Source: Calditrichota bacterium
GTDB lineage: Bacteria; Zhuqueibacterota; Zhuqueibacteria; Zhuqueibacterales; Geothermadaptataceae
Assembly (NCBI GenBank): GCA_008501765.1
Contig: QQUE01000012.1
Coordinates: 62,001-126,000 of the forward strand
Length of the DNA stretch: 64,000 nucleotides
Direction: 5' to 3'
Part shown: in pieces, positions 21,572-33,817 of the stretch
Numbering within the stretch: position 1 is the stretch's first letter
Layout: every line of letters starts with the position of its first letter
Program-made: the position numbers and the translations under genes
The notes under the pieces: model-generated
Databases searched by the model: none
What the model was told of the DNA's origin: nothing
Seen by the model: the letters and a program-made list of their open reading frames with translations, nothing else

Positions 21572-24271
21572 TTAGCTCCTTAATTTTCTGGCTGATGCGG
21601 CGGCTTCATCTTCACGACGTTTTCTGCGCATAAAAATTAGAATCCCAATTATCAAAACAGGAATTGGTGGAAAAAGGACAGCAAAGGATTTGATCGAACT
21701 TTGAATCGCCCGAATACTGGCTTCCATATTTTCTTTACTGGACTGAATTTGGGCCTGTTTTTTAGCTTCGATATTGGCTTTTAAAGCTTCAAATTTACGA
21801 TTTTCCACTTCCTGCAGGTTGCGCGCCATGATTTGTTTCTGCTGGGCATCGATATCAACACGGTTGCGCACTTCCGCCACTTTCTGATCGAGACGGGACT
21901 GCGCTTCGGTCAAAGCAACCTGTGCCTGAGCTTCAGCCGCTTCTTCTTCTTTGCGCCGCTGCTCGATAAATCGCTTCGATTGCGATTCAACCATTTCCAG
22001 CGTGCGGTGCTGAATCCGGCGTTTTCGTAAATCGACAAACGATTCATCGCCGACCAACATATCCATGCAATTGAGAAAAAACGTCACATTATCAAAATTC
22101 AAGTTTTCAAATCCACGCTTGCGAATTTCGAAAAATTGCTGTGAGATAAAATCAAGATCAGCGATAACAACGACATTCACCGATTTAATTTGATCTGCCG
22201 GATCGGTGGCCGTGGAATCCATTACGATCGATGAATTAACAGCTTCACCCTGAATGTGGGCCGCAAATGTGTAATCATGTCCGGAAGGAATTCTTCGGTG
22301 GCCACGGCTGACAAGCTGGGTTCCAAAAAAGCTGCGTTGCACGAGTTGATTGTATTGCAACGCGCCAGCATAGCGACTTGATTTCAGCAACGGGGTAAAT
22401 GAAAACTGACCACCTGGCGCCTGATGAATCGCGCCCGGATAGAGCAGAACCAGCTCCTGCAATCCAGAACTTGCTCTGTGATCAGGATTGAAAGCGTCCG
22501 GTGTTTCATTGCCCGGTCCGACAAAGATTATTTCCGGTGGCACTTGTGCCAAATCAGGATGTGGATTGTAGGTGTCCCAGGCAACCTGGCGGAAATTCCA
22601 GCTGACACCAACTTCGCCGAGAAAATTGAGAATATTGCCTTTTGGTTTCGGTGGCGGCTGATTTTGTTGCTGAAAAGGATTGGTATTGCCGCCGGCTTTT
22701 TCTGAAGGTGACAGGCCAATATTTACCATTGGCAGCGGATCGACCAACAGCAGTGTGGGCACACCGGTAAACATGTATTTTTTCAGATTATCCATTTCTT
22801 CCTGTGGCAAAGCTGAAGGAAGCGCCACCAATAATCCATCCAGTTTTTCCGTGATTTCACTGGCTGGTGAAATCTGAACTACCTCATATTGTTTTTTCAA
22901 TTCTTCGACGACCAGCCAGGCCGGATTGCTGCGCATAGCCTGAAAATCGAATCCACCAAAAAGTTTGGCTTCTGTATCGACGATACCGATCTTCTTGCGC
23001 TCGGTCTTCGCCACAACGCGAATACTGCGTGTTAATTCGTATTCAGTCGGCAAGCCGCGATCAAAAAACGGAATCACATGTTCTTCCGCTGCACAGGTTA
23101 TGGCCAGCCCGAGAAATACCTGCGAACTGCTGGCGCGGGCGCTGCCGGGATCCTGAATTTCCTGCGGCACGATATTAAATTTTTCCCGGGCTTCTTTCGC
23201 TTCCGGTGTGTAGGGCTCTGTGTCGACAATACTCACCTGCACTTTGCTGCCAGCTTCCGCATCGATGCCTTTCAAAAAGCTGACGAGATTTTCGCGCGTT
23301 TGTACATAATGCTGCGGTACATTTTTGCTCAAATAGGCTTGAATAAATACTGGGCGATCTGCATCGAGTTCAGAGAGCAGAGTTTCCGTCTGGTCTGACA
23401 GCGAATGAAGCTGTTCGCCAGTAACATCCAGCCGCATGCTGAACCGGCCCAAAATTGCATTCACACTGACCAAAACCACGACGAGCGCTACGGCACGCAC
23501 CAGATGGTGCACCCACATTTTGTAGCCGTCTGCCTGCGCAGGCCAGTGACGGCGGCCCACAAGAATGATATTCAAATAGAGGACAAATCCCGCCACGCTG
23601 AGGAAATAAACCAGCCCGGAAAAGATCAGAACACCGCGTGCGAAATCATTAAAATGATCGACCACGCCGAATGAAATGAGCATTTCACCAAAATCACGTG
23701 TTACAATTCCACCAAGGGAATCGATAAAAACAAAAAAGGCACACATCAGTGAACCGAGAATGAAAGCGATGGTAATATTGGCGGTGAGCAATGAGGCCAA
23801 CATGCCAACCGCAATCATCGATGTTCCGATGAGCCAGTAACCGATGTAATTTCCGAACATCAAGCCAAGGTCGGGACTGCCCAGCGCCATCAGCACAAAA
23901 ATATGACTGATTGAGAGCAATAACGAAGCAGAGTAAATTCCGACGGCAGCAAAATACTTTCCGAGTACAATTTCCAGATCGGTTGCCGGCAGCGTAAATA
24001 AAAGTTCATCTGTGCCGTGTTGATTTTCATTGGCCCAGACACCCATTGTCAGCGCTGGAATAAAAAACATCAGCAAATAGGGGAAGAGCATATTCAGTTG
24101 ATTGAGATTGGCAAGGTTATTCATGAAGAATCGTTCCTGCCAGAAAGCAGCTGTCGCGCTGAGGAAAATAAAAATAGTGATAAATACATACCCGGACGGA
24201 TTGGTGAAATACATGCGTAAATCACGTTTTAAAATAGCGCGGATAATATTCCAGTTAATATTTAAATTCAT
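21572..24271 (-). CDS. ABC-2 permease fused to GldG-like extracytoplasmic domain
   Basis: 899 residues. The N-terminal ~245 residues are a six-helix ABC-2 permease like GldF (RDLRMYFTNPSGYVF, FFIPALTMGVWANE). One helix follows at ~255-275, then a GldG-like domain (RLDVTGEQLHSLSDQTETLL, AYLSKNVPQHYVQTRE, KIGIVDTEAKLFGG). A Glu/Ala-rich coiled coil (~755-850) comes next, then a final helix (FPPIPVLIIGILIF) and a basic tail. Flavobacterial GldF and GldG are separate proteins, and here they are one. It overlaps the ATPase gene by 4 bases. With the ATPase it forms an export-type transporter related to gliding motility, with unknown cargo. Confidence 0.9.
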   Translation of the reverse strand: MNLNINWNIIRAILKRDLRMYFTNPSGYVFITIFIFLSATAAFWQERFFMNNLANLNQLNMLFPYLLMFFIPALTMGVWANENQHGTDELLFTLPATDLEIVLGKYFAAVGIYSASLLLSISHIFVLMALGSPDLGLMFGNYIGYWLIGTSMIAVGMLASLLTANITIAFILGSLMCAFFVFIDSLGGIVTRDFGEMLISFGVVDHFNDFARGVLIFSGLVYFLSVAGFVLYLNIILVGRRHWPAQADGYKMWVHHLVRAVALVVVLVSVNAILGRFSMRLDVTGEQLHSLSDQTETLLSELDADRPVFIQAYLSKNVPQHYVQTRENLVSFLKGIDAEAGSKVQVSIVDTEPYTPEAKEAREKFNIVPQEIQDPGSARASSSQVFLGLAITCAAEEHVIPFFDRGLPTEYELTRSIRVVAKTERKKIGIVDTEAKLFGGFDFQAMRSNPAWLVVEELKKQYEVVQISPASEITEKLDGLLVALPSALPQEEMDNLKKYMFTGVPTLLLVDPLPMVNIGLSPSEKAGGNTNPFQQQNQPPPKPKGNILNFLGEVGVSWNFRQVAWDTYNPHPDLAQVPPEIIFVGPGNETPDAFNPDHRASSGLQELVLLYPGAIHQAPGGQFSFTPLLKSSRYAGALQYNQLVQRSFFGTQLVSRGHRRIPSGHDYTFAAHIQGEAVNSSIVMDSTATDPADQIKSVNVVVIADLDFISQQFFEIRKRGFENLNFDNVTFFLNCMDMLVGDESFVDLRKRRIQHRTLEMVESQSKRFIEQRRKEEEAAEAQAQVALTEAQSRLDQKVAEVRNRVDIDAQQKQIMARNLQEVENRKFEALKANIEAKKQAQIQSSKENMEASIRAIQSSIKSFAVLFPPIPVLIIGILIFMRRKRREDEAAASARKLRS

Positions 24272-25038
24272 GCTTTTTCTCCCTCCATTTCAGCTGGCGC
24301 GGTCGGACGGCCGTAGTTGGTCAGGCGATAGAATGGTTCTTCGAGAGAGCCTTTTTCGACCAGCTCCGCCGGTTTGCCATCGAAAACCAGTTTGCCTTCG
24401 TTGATCAAAATAACGCGATCGGCGATAGCTTCCACTTCCTGCAAAATATGCGTCGAAAGCAGGATGGTTTTCTTTTTCGCCAGTTGTTTAATATTTTTCC
24501 GGAATTCACGAATCTGGTTCGGATCCAATCCGGCAGTCGGTTCGTCCATGATTAAAACAGCAGGATCATGCAGCAAAGCCTGGGCGAGCCCGACTCTCTG
24601 ACGATAACCTTTCGAAAGTTTACCGATTGATTTTTCCAGCACTTCCTGCAAGGCACATTGCTCCGTCACCCTCGCAATGGCTTTTTCTGTTTCATCAGCA
24701 GACATTTCACGCGTTTCTGCGAAGAATTTCAGAGATTCCACCGGTGTCATATCCAAATATAGAGGGCCGTTTTCAGGTAAATAGCCCAATTCTTTCGACG
24801 CTTGCAACCGTTGTTCGTGAATATCCAGCCCTGCGATTGCAGCCGTACCGGCGCTGGAAGCCAGATAGCCGGTAATAATTTTCATCGTCGTCGACTTACC
24901 CGCACCATTGGGCCCGAGAAATGCCACAATCTGGCCCTCGGGAATAGCGAAAGTAATGTCCTCAACTGCGACGAATGCTCCGTAATATTTACAGATGCCT
25001 TTCGCCTCAATCATCATTTTTGATGATTCATTACTCAT
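24268..25038 (-). CDS. ABC transporter ATP-binding protein (GldA-like)
   Basis: 256 residues. Walker A GPNGAGKST, signature LSKGYRQRVG, Walker B VLIMDEPTAGLD and the switch His (LLSTHILQEVEA) are all present. It belongs to the ABC-2 ATPase group that pairs with GldF/NosY-like permeases. It is the first gene of the three-gene operon, with GAGG before the ATG. It powers the permease-GldG fusion encoded next. Confidence 0.93.
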   Translation of the reverse strand: MSNESSKMMIEAKGICKYYGAFVAVEDITFAIPEGQIVAFLGPNGAGKSTTMKIITGYLASSAGTAAIAGLDIHEQRLQASKELGYLPENGPLYLDMTPVESLKFFAETREMSADETEKAIARVTEQCALQEVLEKSIGKLSKGYRQRVGLAQALLHDPAVLIMDEPTAGLDPNQIREFRKNIKQLAKKKTILLSTHILQEVEAIADRVILINEGKLVFDGKPAELVEKGSLEEPFYRLTNYGRPTAPAEMEGEKA

Positions 25039-28096: not shown

Positions 28097-29581
28097 TTAA
28101 CCGGGAAACGGGTGCGCACTAACGACGGCCAATTTTAAAACTTCCGTCAATTCTTCAAAACTGACGCCATCATCCGGATAGCTGGCCATGTTCAAATGAA
28201 TATCGAGATCGTATTCCAGCCGGGAGAGCGACTTCAACAGGCGGTTTGCGAGAATCCTGGCCATCCGGTACGGCGTTTCCGGCAGCGCAATGCGCAGCTC
28301 ATTTGGCGAGGCAATGGTGATCAAATCGTGCTGGCGCAATATTTCCCGTAGTTTGAAGATCATTTTTTCTAGTAATTCTTTGTAGGCGTCAAAATCCAGG
28401 TCTGTTGTCAAATCGCTTATTTTAAAATGAAAGGCTAAAATAGTGAGGCAATTTTCCGACTCACCGGCATCGTCAATGCATTTTTCGGCTTCCCGGCAAA
28501 AACTATCGCTATCAACAACATGTAATTTCTGCGATTTTATCAGCGCTTCGATATCGTTTTGCGCGAATTTCAGTTTAAGTGGGGGCCCCGGCAAGCTGGC
28601 TTTTTCAAACATATCCTGAATGAGTTTGTAGGAATAGATTTTCCGCACCGGTGCGGAAGCCATATCAAAAAGTTTGTTGCAATTCATACAGCGGCAATTG
28701 ACAATCGGTTCTGTAAATTGCCCCTTGCATTCGTTGCACACACACATGGCAGAGGTGCTTTCATCGTAATCCAGATTCTTGCGCTGTAGAAATTCCAGAC
28801 AATGAGGGCACCGCAGTCCTTTCTCCGTCCGGAATTTGTTTTCCAGGCTGCGATGATTGCAGCGGTCGCAGGTGAGCATTTTCATAGCATCAATATCAGC
28901 GGCATTGCATTGTGGGCAGATTTCCCGAAAATTTAAATCGTGATGGCCGCAATCGGGACACATGTGAATAGCATCATGAAATACCCGCTCCAGCGCACCT
29001 GCTTTTGCCATACTTTCAAGAATGTAAATTTCTCCGCCAACTTCTTCGGGGCGAAGAATTTGTGCTGCTTCGGGATATTCGTAGCCCAATTTTGCAATGC
29101 GGTGGACGCCGGGAACAAGCGTACGAATGCCATGCTCGTTCATAAATTTCAGCAATCTAACCTGGCTGGGCAAAGCCGCATCTTTCCCTGCCTGAATTTT
29201 CACATCGTAAAATGCGAGAATATTTTCCACATGTTTTCGCAGCTCATCCTCATCAAATGGTTTGGCCAAATAATCCATAACGCCAAGGCGTAATCCCATC
29301 AGACGATCGTCTTCAAGTTCATTTTTATTGGTTAAAACAATAACCGGGAGAAAGCGCCACTCTGAATTTTCCTTCACCTGTTCAAGGAAGCTGTAAGCTG
29401 TTGAATCTGACAATTGCGAGGAAAGTATTATCAGGTCTGGCACACCGCGTTCGAGCGCTATCTGCCCCTCGGCGGCATTTCTGGCCAATGTCACACAATA
29501 ATCACAATTTTCCAGTATTTTCTGTGTACGCGTTAAAAGCATTGTGTCATCGTCAATCAGCAGAATATTTTTTTGCGCCAT
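28097..29581 (-). CDS. Receiver-TackOD1-degenerate GGDEF regulator lacking the phosphoacceptor Asp
   Basis: 494 residues from the ATG at 29579-29581 (GAGGG upstream). The N-terminal receiver keeps the acidic cluster (Asp10-12), the switch Thr (VIVLTNK) and Lys (YLAKPFD). The phosphoacceptor position reads Ser (PDLIILSSQ, ~residue 54). The middle (~200-320) has repeated CxxC pairs (MCPDCGHHDLNFREICPQC, TCDRCNHRS, CPHCLEFL, CMNCNKLF) and matches the TackOD1 zinc-binding output domain. The C-terminal ~130 residues resemble a GGDEF fold but carry SPNEL where GGDEF should be, so cyclase activity is unlikely. It is the last gene of the signalling operon, 44 bases after the histidine kinase. Role: probably a protein-binding regulator. 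Confidence 0.82.
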   Translation of the reverse strand: MAQKNILLIDDDTMLLTRTQKILENCDYCVTLARNAAEGQIALERGVPDLIILSSQLSDSTAYSFLEQVKENSEWRFLPVIVLTNKNELEDDRLMGLRLGVMDYLAKPFDEDELRKHVENILAFYDVKIQAGKDAALPSQVRLLKFMNEHGIRTLVPGVHRIAKLGYEYPEAAQILRPEEVGGEIYILESMAKAGALERVFHDAIHMCPDCGHHDLNFREICPQCNAADIDAMKMLTCDRCNHRSLENKFRTEKGLRCPHCLEFLQRKNLDYDESTSAMCVCNECKGQFTEPIVNCRCMNCNKLFDMASAPVRKIYSYKLIQDMFEKASLPGPPLKLKFAQNDIEALIKSQKLHVVDSDSFCREAEKCIDDAGESENCLTILAFHFKISDLTTDLDFDAYKELLEKMIFKLREILRQHDLITIASPNELRIALPETPYRMARILANRLLKSLSRLEYDLDIHLNMASYPDDGVSFEELTEVLKLAVVSAHPFPG

Positions 29582-29625
29582 AAATCCCTCATTATTTCTT
29601 GACTGCAAATCAAGTTAAAATGTCG

Positions 29626-30735
29626 TCAGTGTGGCATCTTTTCGGAAGATGTCATGTCGACTTTTGTTTTTTCCCGGCGAGGATTCCTTGGAAGTTTAAA
29701 ACTTATTTTAAACCACTTTTTCGCTTCCGATTGTGCCCAAATGTTACCATCATGCGCTTTAATAATACATTTCGTATTAAAAAGTCCAAGTCCTGTACCA
29801 CGAGGTAAATTGGGGTCTTTGTTGGCACCTTGAGAAAATTTGTCAAAAATAGTTTCGATTCTCTTTTTCGAAATCCCACAACCTGTATTTTTGATGGAAA
29901 ATAAATACCCATCCTCTAATTCTTCCACTTCGTAGGAAATTGTGGAATGGGGTTTCCCGTATTTTACCGCATTGCTGAAAACATTCGTAAAAACCACTTT
30001 CAGCAAATCCAGATCGCCAACTAATCCCATATGTTCTTTTGTTGCAGCCGATTTTTGATCGATTTTCATATCTTTCAGGCTCAACTGGCCTGTAAGTTCA
30101 GTCAATACAGGCTGTAACAGATCTTTATCCACATCGATTTCCTGCCAATGAATCAGCAATTCGCCATTTTCAATTTTGGAGAGATCGAGATAGTTTTTAA
30201 TCATATCAATCAAGTTTCGTGATACGCGCGTAATCACCTGAACACCGTTTAATTGCTCCACATTCAATTTGCCCAGATATCCTTCTTCGAGCAATTCGGC
30301 GAAGCCAAGAATGGAGACGAGCGGGCTGCGTAATTCATGGGAAACGAAACCCAGCATATTGAGATAATACGCATTGAGCTGTTTCAGATTTTCATTGTTA
30401 TCGCTCATCTTCTGATATAAATTATCGAGCTCCTGATTACGAGACTTTAATTGGAGCTGCATTTCTGCATTATCTCGCAAAACTTCGGCGAGTTGAGAAT
30501 ACATCAAGAGAGCCTTAACTTTTTCCCTCTCCATCAAATCTGAAATATTTGCCGGTTTTTCATCAAGCTGAGCCCCGGAAAGATCAGTCAGCCGCCTTTC
30601 ATATTCTGCGAGAAGAGAATCGAGCATTTTATCCGGGTCCTTTGTCTTTTGCAGCAGCTCAATACTTTTTTTGTGCAATTGACTCAACTCGGCAATCATG
30701 ATCTGCAATTCAGTTTGTTTATCTTTTTGATTCAT
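29626..30735 (-). CDS. Soluble sensor histidine kinase
   Basis: 369 residues with no membrane helix or PAS domain. An N-terminal helical, coiled-coil-like region (1-125) is followed by HisKA with His133 in FVSHELRSPL, then HATPase_c. The latter has N box TNVFSNAVKYG, G1 NTGCGISKKR, F box IFDKFSQG and G2 RGTGLGLF. All catalytic motifs look intact. The N-terminal helices probably receive a signal from a partner protein. It sits between the PilB-type ATPase and the atypical receiver protein on one transcript. Because neighbouring receivers lack the Asp, its phosphotransfer partner may be elsewhere. Confidence 0.92.
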   Translation of the reverse strand: MNQKDKQTELQIMIAELSQLHKKSIELLQKTKDPDKMLDSLLAEYERRLTDLSGAQLDEKPANISDLMEREKVKALLMYSQLAEVLRDNAEMQLQLKSRNQELDNLYQKMSDNNENLKQLNAYYLNMLGFVSHELRSPLVSILGFAELLEEGYLGKLNVEQLNGVQVITRVSRNLIDMIKNYLDLSKIENGELLIHWQEIDVDKDLLQPVLTELTGQLSLKDMKIDQKSAATKEHMGLVGDLDLLKVVFTNVFSNAVKYGKPHSTISYEVEELEDGYLFSIKNTGCGISKKRIETIFDKFSQGANKDPNLPRGTGLGLFNTKCIIKAHDGNIWAQSEAKKWFKISFKLPRNPRREKTKVDMTSSEKMPH

Positions 30736-30768
30736 AATTCCAATTTATTCTCTTTTTTTGGCGCGTGT

Positions 30769-32451
30769 TTAAGTTACGCGTAATACTTCTTCGATTGTTG
30801 TCGTACCATCGAAAGCTTTTCTCAAACCATCATGCCGTAATAAGGCCATGCCACTTTTGACGGCATATTTCCGGATATCCTCTTCCGGCGCCTTGTCCAG
30901 AACTTTCCGCCGGATATTCGAATCAAAAAGCAGAAGTTCATGTATACCGGTTCGACCGATATATCCGGTTTTTTTGCATTCGCGGCAGCCGGCACCGCGG
31001 TATAATTTGATAGAATTATCACGCAATTTATAATTATTCTCTTTTAGATGGCGCAATCCTTCCGTGTCTTCCACTTTGCAGTGCGGGCAGACCCTGCGGA
31101 CGAGCCGTTGCGCCAAAATTCCGATTACCGAAGAAGCAAGCAAAAATGGCTCAACTTCCATATCCATCAGACGAAAAATACCGCTCACCGCATCATTGGT
31201 GTGCAATGTTGATAAAACCAAATGCCCCGTCATCGCGCTGCGAATGGCAATATCAGCAGTTTCCGAATCGCGAATTTCCCCGACCATTATTACATCGGGG
31301 TCCTGCCGCAAGATGGAGCGCAAGGCACCGGCAAAAGTCAATCCCACCTTAAAATTAACCTGAACCTGATTGATCAACGGAAATTTATATTCAACCGGGT
31401 TCTCGATGGTGACGATGTTTTTATGAATTGAATTGATCGTATTGAGTACCGAATAAAGCGTTGTGGTTTTGCCGCTGCCGGTCGGGCCGGTTATCAGAAT
31501 TATTCCTTCCGGTTTCCGAATCGCTTTATCCCAGAGTTGCAAGGTGCGTGGTTGAAATCCGAGATCAGCTAATTTCAACTCGGCATTTCGAGGATCGAGA
31601 ATTCGCAACACAACTTTTTCGCCGTGCACAGTCGGCAAAATCGAAACCCGTAAATCCAGCTCATCGCGCACAATTTTCACTCTGAACCGGCCATCCTGCG
31701 GCACTCTTTTTTCTGAGACATCGAGTTCAGCGAGCACTTTTATGCGCGAGACCACCATCGGCGCAATTTTCTTCGGCGGTGTTGAAAATGGATGTAAAAC
31801 ACCGTCGATGCGATAGCGAATGCGAAACTCTTTTTCTTCCATTTCCATGTGAATATCGCTGGCTTTTTCCCGGATCGCCTGCGAAATTATTACGTTGACA
31901 AAGTTGATGATGGACGCTTCATCGGTGGCGTCAAGATTTGTTTCGTTGTCGGTATCCTCATTCAGCTCAACCACACTGTCTTCTTTAAAACTCGTCACCA
32001 TGCGGTCAAGATAGGCGGCCATGCTATAATATTTTTTGATCGCCGTTTCGATATCCTTTTCAGCAGCCAGCACTTCCTGGATATTTAATTTGGTGTGGTA
32101 GCGGACTGCATCCATCGCCTTCAGATCGAGCGGGTCGGACATCGCCAGCGTGAGCATGTCATCGACGAGGAAAAGCGGGATAATATTGTAGCGTTGCGCC
32201 AGTTCCATCGGGATTGACTTAACGATCGCCGGATCAATACTGTAAGCCCCAATTTTTACAACCGGTAAATCAAATTTTTCGCTGAGTGCATCCAGTAAAA
32301 AAGATTCGGTGATCCAGCCCTGCTTGATCATTATTCGTCCGAATTGATCCCCGGTGCGCTTTTGAATTTCCAGCGCGCTTTCGATCTGCTGGTCTGTGAT
32401 CAGGCCTCTGCTCTGGAGAATTTCTCCCAATTTTCGATAGCGGTTATTCAT
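30769..32451 (-). CDS. PilB/GspE-family secretion/pilus assembly ATPase
   Basis: 560 residues from ATG 32449-32451. A GTG at 32472 that overlaps the previous gene is an alternative. The N-terminal T2SSE_N/MshEN domain (LGEILQSRGLITDQQIESAL) can bind cyclic di-GMP in relatives. The ATPase core has the Asp box region (SDIHMEMEEKEFRIRYRIDG), Walker A GPTGSGKTTT, Walker B PDVIMVGEIRDSETA and a His box around STLHTNDA. A tetracysteine zinc motif follows (CPHC, then CREC). The protein powers type IV pilus extension or type II secretion. No other pilus or secretion gene is adjacent. Instead it lies in a signalling operon. Confidence 0.93.
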   Translation of the reverse strand: MNNRYRKLGEILQSRGLITDQQIESALEIQKRTGDQFGRIMIKQGWITESFLLDALSEKFDLPVVKIGAYSIDPAIVKSIPMELAQRYNIIPLFLVDDMLTLAMSDPLDLKAMDAVRYHTKLNIQEVLAAEKDIETAIKKYYSMAAYLDRMVTSFKEDSVVELNEDTDNETNLDATDEASIINFVNVIISQAIREKASDIHMEMEEKEFRIRYRIDGVLHPFSTPPKKIAPMVVSRIKVLAELDVSEKRVPQDGRFRVKIVRDELDLRVSILPTVHGEKVVLRILDPRNAELKLADLGFQPRTLQLWDKAIRKPEGIILITGPTGSGKTTTLYSVLNTINSIHKNIVTIENPVEYKFPLINQVQVNFKVGLTFAGALRSILRQDPDVIMVGEIRDSETADIAIRSAMTGHLVLSTLHTNDAVSGIFRLMDMEVEPFLLASSVIGILAQRLVRRVCPHCKVEDTEGLRHLKENNYKLRDNSIKLYRGAGCRECKKTGYIGRTGIHELLLFDSNIRRKVLDKAPEEDIRKYAVKSGMALLRHDGLRKAFDGTTTIEEVLRVT

Positions 32452-32456
32452 CGATT

Positions 32457-32930
32457 TTAATGGAGCTCCCACCAGATATTTGAGTCCAAATCTTCGGGTG
32501 TGTCCTCACTAAGAGTGGGAATATGGCAATACGGCCAAACCTGCAGCGGGATTTGCAACAGGTCAAAATAATTTTGCATCCGGCGTAAATTCAGTTCCAA
32601 TTTTAAAGGCGAGGGGATGAAACCGGCGATGCCGGCGGCATAGGCATCTTGCAACTCCTCGGGATCAATATCATCGCACAACAATAAAATTGGCGGCAAA
32701 TTTTCTGAATCGCCACGCTCCTTAAAATCGCTAACCAGTGGCCCAATAAACCGAATAGAATCAGTTAAGCAGAGCAGCGGTGAATCGAACCTTGTTTTAG
32801 CCTCAATCAGATAATCTGCAACGTTTTTATAAACCAGTATTTCCGCACCAACGGCAGCGCGGTAAAAAATTTGTTTGGCCGAAAAAATTTCTTCATCCGA
32901 ACGTAAAAACAGAATAATTTGATTTCTCAA
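32457..32930 (-). CDS. Degenerate receiver-like protein
   Basis: 157 residues starting at TTG (32928-32930) with AAGGA upstream. No in-frame ATG occurs before the end of the domain. The fold pattern is that of a CheY-like domain: alternating strands IILFLRS, LLCLTDS, PILLLCDD, GIAGFIPSPLK. The acidic pair after strand 1 is gone, and the phosphoacceptor position reads Thr with an Asp next to it. A family-like C-terminal LRRMQNYFDLL helix is present. It is likely a non-phosphorylated protein-protein adaptor for the PilB-type ATPase encoded 5 bases downstream. Remote receiver homology is inferred. Confidence 0.6.
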   Translation of the reverse strand: MRNQIILFLRSDEEIFSAKQIFYRAAVGAEILVYKNVADYLIEAKTRFDSPLLCLTDSIRFIGPLVSDFKERGDSENLPPILLLCDDIDPEELQDAYAAGIAGFIPSPLKLELNLRRMQNYFDLLQIPLQVWPYCHIPTLSEDTPEDLDSNIWWELH

Positions 32931-32950
32931 AATTCCTTCTTTTTTTTAAT

Positions 32951-33817
32951 TCAGGCAACAGATTGAAAAAAAGCAATTGCCGTAGTGAAATTTCGTTTAA
33001 CTTCCTGCATAATATCCGTATAACTATCGGCTCCCAATCCCAATTCACTTTTGACGAGTGAATCAATCGGTGGAACCAGGCTATCCCCCGCAAATCCAAG
33101 TCCTTCTTCGCGAACAAGGGCATCGGCAAGGTGAACAATGGTTACCAGTTTCTGATCGACTTCACTCATCTCCGGGGCATGGTGGTGGCGCAAAGCGTCT
33201 GTGAGGTGGGGGGGCAAATGCCATTTATCAACAAGCCAGCTGCCGATAAAAGCATGGGTTTCACCAATAATTTCACGTTCCGCATCAAACAGACACATGC
33301 CGCCGGCATCCGCCAGGGTCAGCGCTGAGAGAAAATCATCATGCGTGTACCTGTCAAAGACAACTTTACCGATATCATGAATCAGCCCGGCAATAAAAGC
33401 ATCTTCTTTTTTTGAATAATTAATTCGCGTCGCAATCACATTCGCTGTCATGGCCGCAGCGATCGAATGCTCCCAAAGTTTTTCACGTGTATATTCGAAA
33501 TTTTTCGGGAAAGAAGAATCCGTGCTAAACTCATCAAAAACAGCAATAGTCAACGCGACGTTGCGGATTGCCGAAAATCCCATAACCACTGTGGCCTGTG
33601 TCAGTGTCGCAATTTGCCGCGGCATGCCATAAAAGGGAGAATTGACAAGTTTTAGCACCTTGACCATCAGCGCGGGGTCCGTTCCAATTATTCGCGCAAT
33701 GTCAGGCGCTGTACTTTCCGGATTATCAACTGCGCTCAGCAATCGCATAATTACTTCCGGCAGTGTGGGTGATTCAATTTTTCCGTCCAGTATTTCTTGC
33801 AACTGTGGGCTAATCAT
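32951..33817 (-). CDS. HDOD-domain signalling protein
   Basis: 288 residues covering one HDOD domain: LPEVIMRLLSAVDNPESTAPDIARII, DPALMVKVLKLVNSPFYG, then AGLIHDIGKVVFD, where an HD pair is retained. HDOD proteins regulate motility, c-di-GMP and stress pathways through protein contacts, and most lack hydrolase activity. It is the first gene of the five-gene operon, followed 20 bases later by the degenerate receiver gene. AAAGGA lies directly before the ATG. Confidence 0.9.
   Translation of the reverse strand: MISPQLQEILDGKIESPTLPEVIMRLLSAVDNPESTAPDIARIIGTDPALMVKVLKLVNSPFYGMPRQIATLTQATVVMGFSAIRNVALTIAVFDEFSTDSSFPKNFEYTREKLWEHSIAAAMTANVIATRINYSKKEDAFIAGLIHDIGKVVFDRYTHDDFLSALTLADAGGMCLFDAEREIIGETHAFIGSWLVDKWHLPPHLTDALRHHHAPEMSEVDQKLVTIVHLADALVREEGLGFAGDSLVPPIDSLVKSELGLGADSYTDIMQEVKRNFTTAIAFFQSVA

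Follow-up and report, generated by a model that had tools for sequence, protein, structure and literature searches.

A PilB-type motor cassette standing apart from pilC in candidate division KSB1, plausibly the retained half of a former type IV filament operon

What does a pilus-type extension motor drive when its gene stands among regulators, with no other gene of a pilus machine beside it? This question is raised by a cassette in the window, the 64,000-nucleotide stretch of a Calditrichota genome that was analysed (contig QQUE01000012.1, positions 62,001 to 126,000). The cassette consists of five genes, all on the minus strand from 33817 to 28097, and all of the open reading frames were recovered at the expected coordinates. 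The first gene (32951..33817) encodes an HDOD-domain protein of 288 aa (Pfam HDOD, 2.6e-58), followed by a degenerate stand-alone receiver of 157 aa (32457..32930) recognised from its canonical Response_reg orthologues and the receiver fold of its model. The third gene (30769..32451) encodes a PilB-type extension ATPase with an N-terminal MshEN domain (Pfam T2SSE, 4.1e-140; MshEN, 2.9e-22), an assignment also based on motifs, structures and a tree. The last two encode a soluble HisKA-HATPase histidine kinase (29626..30735; HisKA, 4.4e-13; HATPase_c, 5.6e-21; orthologue alignment) and a protein made up of a receiver, a TackOD1 zinc ribbon and a degenerate GGDEF domain (28097..29581; Response_reg, 3.9e-17; TackOD1, 1.2e-36; alignment and model). 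With the best starts, ATG 32451 for the ATPase and ATG 29581 for the TackOD1 protein, the intergenic gaps are 20, 5, 33 and 44 nt. Alternative starts are possible at GTG 32472 and TTG 29608, respectively; the ATG was taken for the ATPase because the longer GTG start overlaps the preceding gene. Promoter and terminator scans of the cassette were weakly informative at best. The original prediction had described a five-gene minus-strand run with short gaps and without pilus-machine genes beside it, and both points hold, as no pilC, pilT or pilin gene adjoins the cassette. Downstream lie a GldA-like ABC ATPase and a fused GldF-GldG-like protein (21572-25038 of the window), and a homologue is also found near the cassette of another genome of the family, G005 (L045:11497-14163).

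The motor motifs of the ATPase are all intact, namely Walker A (GPTGSGKTTT), Walker B (LRQDPDVIMVGEIRD), the Asp box (SDIHMEMEEKEFRIRYRIDG) and the His box (MTGHLVLSTLHTND), and PilB and PilF are its nearest relatives among solved structures. Against the NCBIfam PilB model TIGR02538 it scores 643.8 bits, just under the equivalog cut-off of 675.65, and with 646.9 bits the genome's main-pilus ATPase misses that cut-off too. The NCBIfam TfpB model yields 503.8 bits and its cut-off of 850 is missed by far. Judged by these scores and motifs, the protein is a PilB-like, pilus-type extension motor, as originally proposed, and not a member of the TfpB family. Regulation by c-di-GMP, another part of the proposal, is uncertain. 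The MshEN-type motif model NF053729 gives 61.4 bits at a cut-off of 38, but the accepted pattern of the MshEN c-di-GMP receptor is two 24-residue motifs with Arg, Leu, Gly and Gln, and the second half-motif of the window ATPase is altered from R to Q (Arg38 equivalent), from L to F and from Q to K (Gln61 equivalent).

The family sample comprised seven genomes in draft assembly, with completeness of 99% for the window's genome (G000), 97% for its sister species (G001), 96% for G004 and 83% for G006. Besides the window's genome, the cassette occurs in G001, G004, G005 and G006 of the family, and its gene order is conserved there, as the original prediction would lead one to expect. The same five genes are found in G004; G005 has six, with an extra GAF-PAS kinase between the HDOD and receiver genes, and G001 has four, the small receiver gene being absent. 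In G006 the contig ends just past the ATPase, leaving the upstream genes out of sight, and G003 has no window-type cassette though it possesses a PilC half. The kinase/TackOD1 pair is found without the ATPase in families f4, f9 and f11; hence its link to the motor is family-specific, and it is probably a pre-existing signalling pair that joined the motor in the window's family.

In a tree of 44 ATPases, the window-type sequences from five genomes form one clade (100/99), which is nested in a larger clade with ATPases of families f17 and f9 (100/99; with f9 98/89). The first ATPases of the main pilus, the second ATPases and the others make up separate clades with good support. The tree rejects the idea that the window ATPase is the main pilus's second ATPase (A2) moved to a new place, since A2 forms its own 100/100 clade. 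The B-type ATPases of f17 and f9 directly precede pilC, pilins, pilM and pilQ. The f17 operon, holding the closest ATPase outside the family, encodes CheA, CheB, CheR, a receiver, an HDOD protein, a GAF-PAS kinase (in G070), a small protein, the ATPase, PilC, pilins, PilM and PilQ, while in f9 the ATPase heads PilC, pilins, PilM and a secretin, joined in G044 by a peptidase. The GAF-PAS kinases of G005 and f17 are homologous (33%, 1.6e-96) and take the same operon position. The small protein directly 5' of the f17 ATPase (L092:7685-8152, L093:8364-8867), perhaps CheW-like, has no Pfam match; it holds the position of the window's 157-aa receiver and is unrelated to it in sequence. As the window ATPase groups with ATPases of complete pilus operons, the cassette is best read as the motor-and-regulator half of an operon that once encoded a complete type IV filament; we refer to this operon as system B. 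That the ATPase might belong to a complete pilus operon elsewhere had been named as an argument against the original prediction, and this proved half true: orthologous ATPases stand in complete operons of other families, and in one related genus the other half survives at a locus of its own.

The fate of the other half can be followed within the family. Both halves of system B are kept at separate loci in G005, and the PilC half is kept in G003. In these two genomes the separate locus consists of PilC, pilins, PilM and a secretin; the secretins fall in the B clade of the secretin tree at 99/98, and the PilC proteins lie outside the main-pilus and L010-type PilC clades of their own family. Searches with PF00482 and PF00263 did not find the B-type platform and secretin half in the draft assemblies of G000, G001, G004 and G006. 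The ATPases of G001 are of the window type and main type only, plus PilT, and its one PilC and one secretin are both those of the main retractile type IV pilus, so any filament made by the window-type ATPase there must use the main-pilus platform. The window's genome has four extension-type ATPases, three PilC and one PilT, and the window ATPase is the sole extension-type ATPase without a PilC, each of the others adjoining its own.

From these observations a reading emerges that we regard, taken as a whole, as probable by a little. The system-B operon was split in an ancestor of the family, and the other half (B-type PilC, pilins, PilM/O and secretin) was then probably lost in the window's genus. 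The retained PilB-type ATPase would dock on the main-pilus PilC and act as a second, accessory extension motor of that retractile type IV pilus, under the control of its own HDOD protein, histidine kinase and REC-TackOD1-GGDEF-like protein. The HDOD protein would probably act on the ATPase directly or as a nucleotide-sensing partner, and the kinase probably signals via the TackOD1 protein or, in the window's genus, via canonical receivers encoded elsewhere. The data show the gene content, the orthology, the split, the lack of the other half in the assemblies and the purifying selection, whereas docking on the main PilC and the regulatory contacts are inferred. A pilus motor outliving its own machine would be a natural case bearing on the interchangeability of extension motors. 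The bacteria with the split-off motor cassette are uncultured marine members of candidate division KSB1.

What HDOD domains do has yet to be established (PMC6543031), and a single paper in the literature searched mentions HDOD, PilB and type IV pili together. Within the phylum an HDOD gene adjoins the ATPase in two paralogous lineages, the main type and the B type. In the HDOD tree the window-type proteins form one clade (96/98) apart from the main-pilus HDODs (96/97), so the pairing holds in both lineages; a recent copying of the main-pilus HDOD as the source of the window HDOD is rejected by the same tree. The HDODs paired with a pilus ATPase are two of three in G066 and G070 and two of eight in G000, more than expected by chance (a permutation estimate of about 1e-4 per genome, ranging from about 4e-5 to 3e-4, on assumed gene numbers). 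No HDOD beside a pilus ATPase was seen in other phyla among 20 loci fetched. The repeated pairing supports the HDOD protein as a motor regulator and provides a concrete, testable target for HDOD function. Thus the regulatory unit in the original idea of a dedicated switch for a fibre motor is reasonable, but its purely binding-based control is not sustained.

The main pilus locus of the window's genome (L008) encodes a prepilin peptidase, a PAS kinase, a receiver, an HDOD protein, an ATPase, a receiver, a 517-aa MshEN pseudo-ATPase, an NtrC-type regulator, PilC (L008:2999-4207) and pilins, and PilM, PilO, a secretin and PilT are found at L011. The 517-aa protein (L008:6404-7957, contig C11) has an ATPase-like remainder without any motor motif, and its homologues in G001, G003, G004, G005 and G006 mark it as conserved in the pilus operon. 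Its position is that of the second, intact tandem ATPase of other families; main pilus operons of f4, f15 and f17 (L096, L097, L102, L103) have two intact tandem extension ATPases, a receiver gene between them and a single PilC. A tentative suggestion, which we consider doubtful, is that direct and dedicated control of pilus extension ATPases is the function of HDOD proteins across much of the phylum and that, the second tandem main-pilus ATPase being a pseudo-enzyme in the window's family, the cassette of the dismantled pilus replaces it in trans. If so, one pilus would have two interchangeable motors under separate sensory control.

Against the favoured reading, in which the motor serves the main pilus, it may be held that the ATPase still drives its own filament, the PilC and pilins having been overlooked in an assembly gap or through extreme divergence. 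The assemblies are indeed drafts, and G005, with both halves at separate loci, demonstrates that separation needs no loss. A lost PilC could lie in an assembly gap, yet it is absent from four genomes of two genera, where the PF00482 and PF00263 searches returned no B-type platform or secretin, and in the secretin tree the extra secretins of the window's genome are either lone or part of a type II secretion system (T2SS; L198), making an overlooked filament unlikely. A further filament system of this genome, L010, has its own PilC and secretin. The L198 secretin locus on contig C9 was considered as a hidden complete B-type system and rejected, as it is most likely a T2SS half with the E and F genes at the end of contig C11; L009 (C11) and L198 are most likely two pieces of one T2SS, each at a contig end, and the terminal sequence of C9 resembles the beginning of a transposase gene. 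Elsewhere in this genome (L199:7647-8897; C3:263 kb), a very divergent protein with a secretin domain stands alone among extracytoplasmic proteins, with no pilus genes nearby.

Decay is another explanation, under which the cassette is being lost gene after gene and will shed its remaining genes too. The cassette has six genes in G005, five in G004, five with a degenerate receiver in the window and four in G001, and neither the window's genus nor G004 or G006 yielded the other half. However, the window ATPase, motifs intact, is under strong purifying selection: compared with that of G001 it shows 85% identity, dN of 0.097 and dN/dS of about 0.05, a pattern similar to that of PilT and the main ATPase, with synonymous sites saturated in several genes of the comparison. 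Moreover, the HDOD protein, kinase and TackOD1 protein are conserved between species whose synonymous sites are saturated. The selection estimate already disfavours decay, and we hold it to be rather unlikely.

The TackOD1 protein connects to other loci as well. In the window's genome, a TackOD1 protein without a recognisable receiver (L059:9145-10569) heads a GT2 polysaccharide-synthase operon; TackOD1-led GT2 operons also occur at L050, L051, L053, L056 and L060, and in f7 the TackOD1 protein is divergent to an MshEN-ATPase without pilC. A search with a broad TackOD1 alignment gave no usable pattern, and a narrow alignment recovered the known family members plus one weak match elsewhere (26% identity). 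The f7 arrangement and the paralogous TackOD1-GT2 operon in the window's genome could indicate that the ATPase no longer takes part in filament assembly and controls another process, for example exopolysaccharide synthesis. This is improbable, given that the f7 ATPase is of a distant lineage (branch 1.62), the TackOD1 proteins are alike mainly in the zinc-ribbon region, and the window ATPase scores as PilB.

Regarding the signalling proteins, both receivers had been predicted to be non-canonical, and both active sites are incomplete, but the acceptor is lost only in the TackOD1 protein. By the usual definition (acceptor Asp, acidic pair, Thr/Ser and Lys), neither receiver of the window cassette is a canonical response regulator, and the orthologues in G004 and G005 are. 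The 157-aa protein retains Asp57 but no longer the acidic pair, the Thr or the Lys; it has no Pfam match, its model adopts a (beta-alpha)5 receiver fold, and its orthologues match Response_reg at 8e-21 and 1e-18. The acceptor position of the TackOD1 protein is Ser in the window (Ser63) and G001, Asp in G004, G005 and G038, and Glu in family f4. The non-canonical state is therefore lineage-specific, recent within the window's family and confined there to the window's genus. The C-terminus of the TackOD1 protein is GGDEF-like with the signature missing, every orthologue having SPNEL or a similar sequence instead, so synthesis of c-di-GMP by this domain is not expected; the protein's low-confidence model (mean pLDDT 58) matches REC-GGDEF proteins of the PleD/WspR type. 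The kinase retains the phospho-acceptor His in SHELRSPL. Its G1-box Asp is Asn in all members, a change also shared by active kinases and thus not read as inactivation. That the degenerate receivers switch the motor by protein binding without a phosphorelay, as originally claimed, is very improbable: neither window receiver has a complete active site, but the conserved cassette differs, with canonical receivers in G004 and G005, no small receiver in G001, acceptor loss only in the window's genus within the family, and the kinase His kept.

Compared with known systems, the window ATPase resembles type IVa PilB in best-scoring family, best solved relatives, complete motor motifs and MshEN domain; unlike it, the window ATPase falls just under the equivalog cut-off and lies away from pilC with a regulatory cassette. 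Acinetobacter offers a precedent for the favoured reading: in the relevant part of PMC8213720, TfpB of A. baylyi is a second extension motor whose gene does not adjoin pilC, and both it and the window ATPase are thus second PilB-like extension ATPases away from pilC, beside a main pilB-pilC system. The window ATPase differs in its TfpB score (504 bits, cut-off 850) and in its HDOD/kinase cassette, none being described for TfpB in that part of the source (PMC8213720). With MshE of V. cholerae (PMC5013675) it shares two MshEN half-motifs, scoring above the NCBIfam motif cut-off, whereas its second half-motif has Gln and Lys at the Arg38 and Gln61 equivalents. Finally, the TackOD1 domain is on record from type IV pilus loci of thaumarchaea (arCOG06883; PMC4858521, PMC5847659), and the proteins there share with the window protein the REC-TackOD1 architecture and the link to type IV pilus genes; in contrast, the window protein is bacterial, adds a degenerate GGDEF domain and pairs with a histidine kinase.
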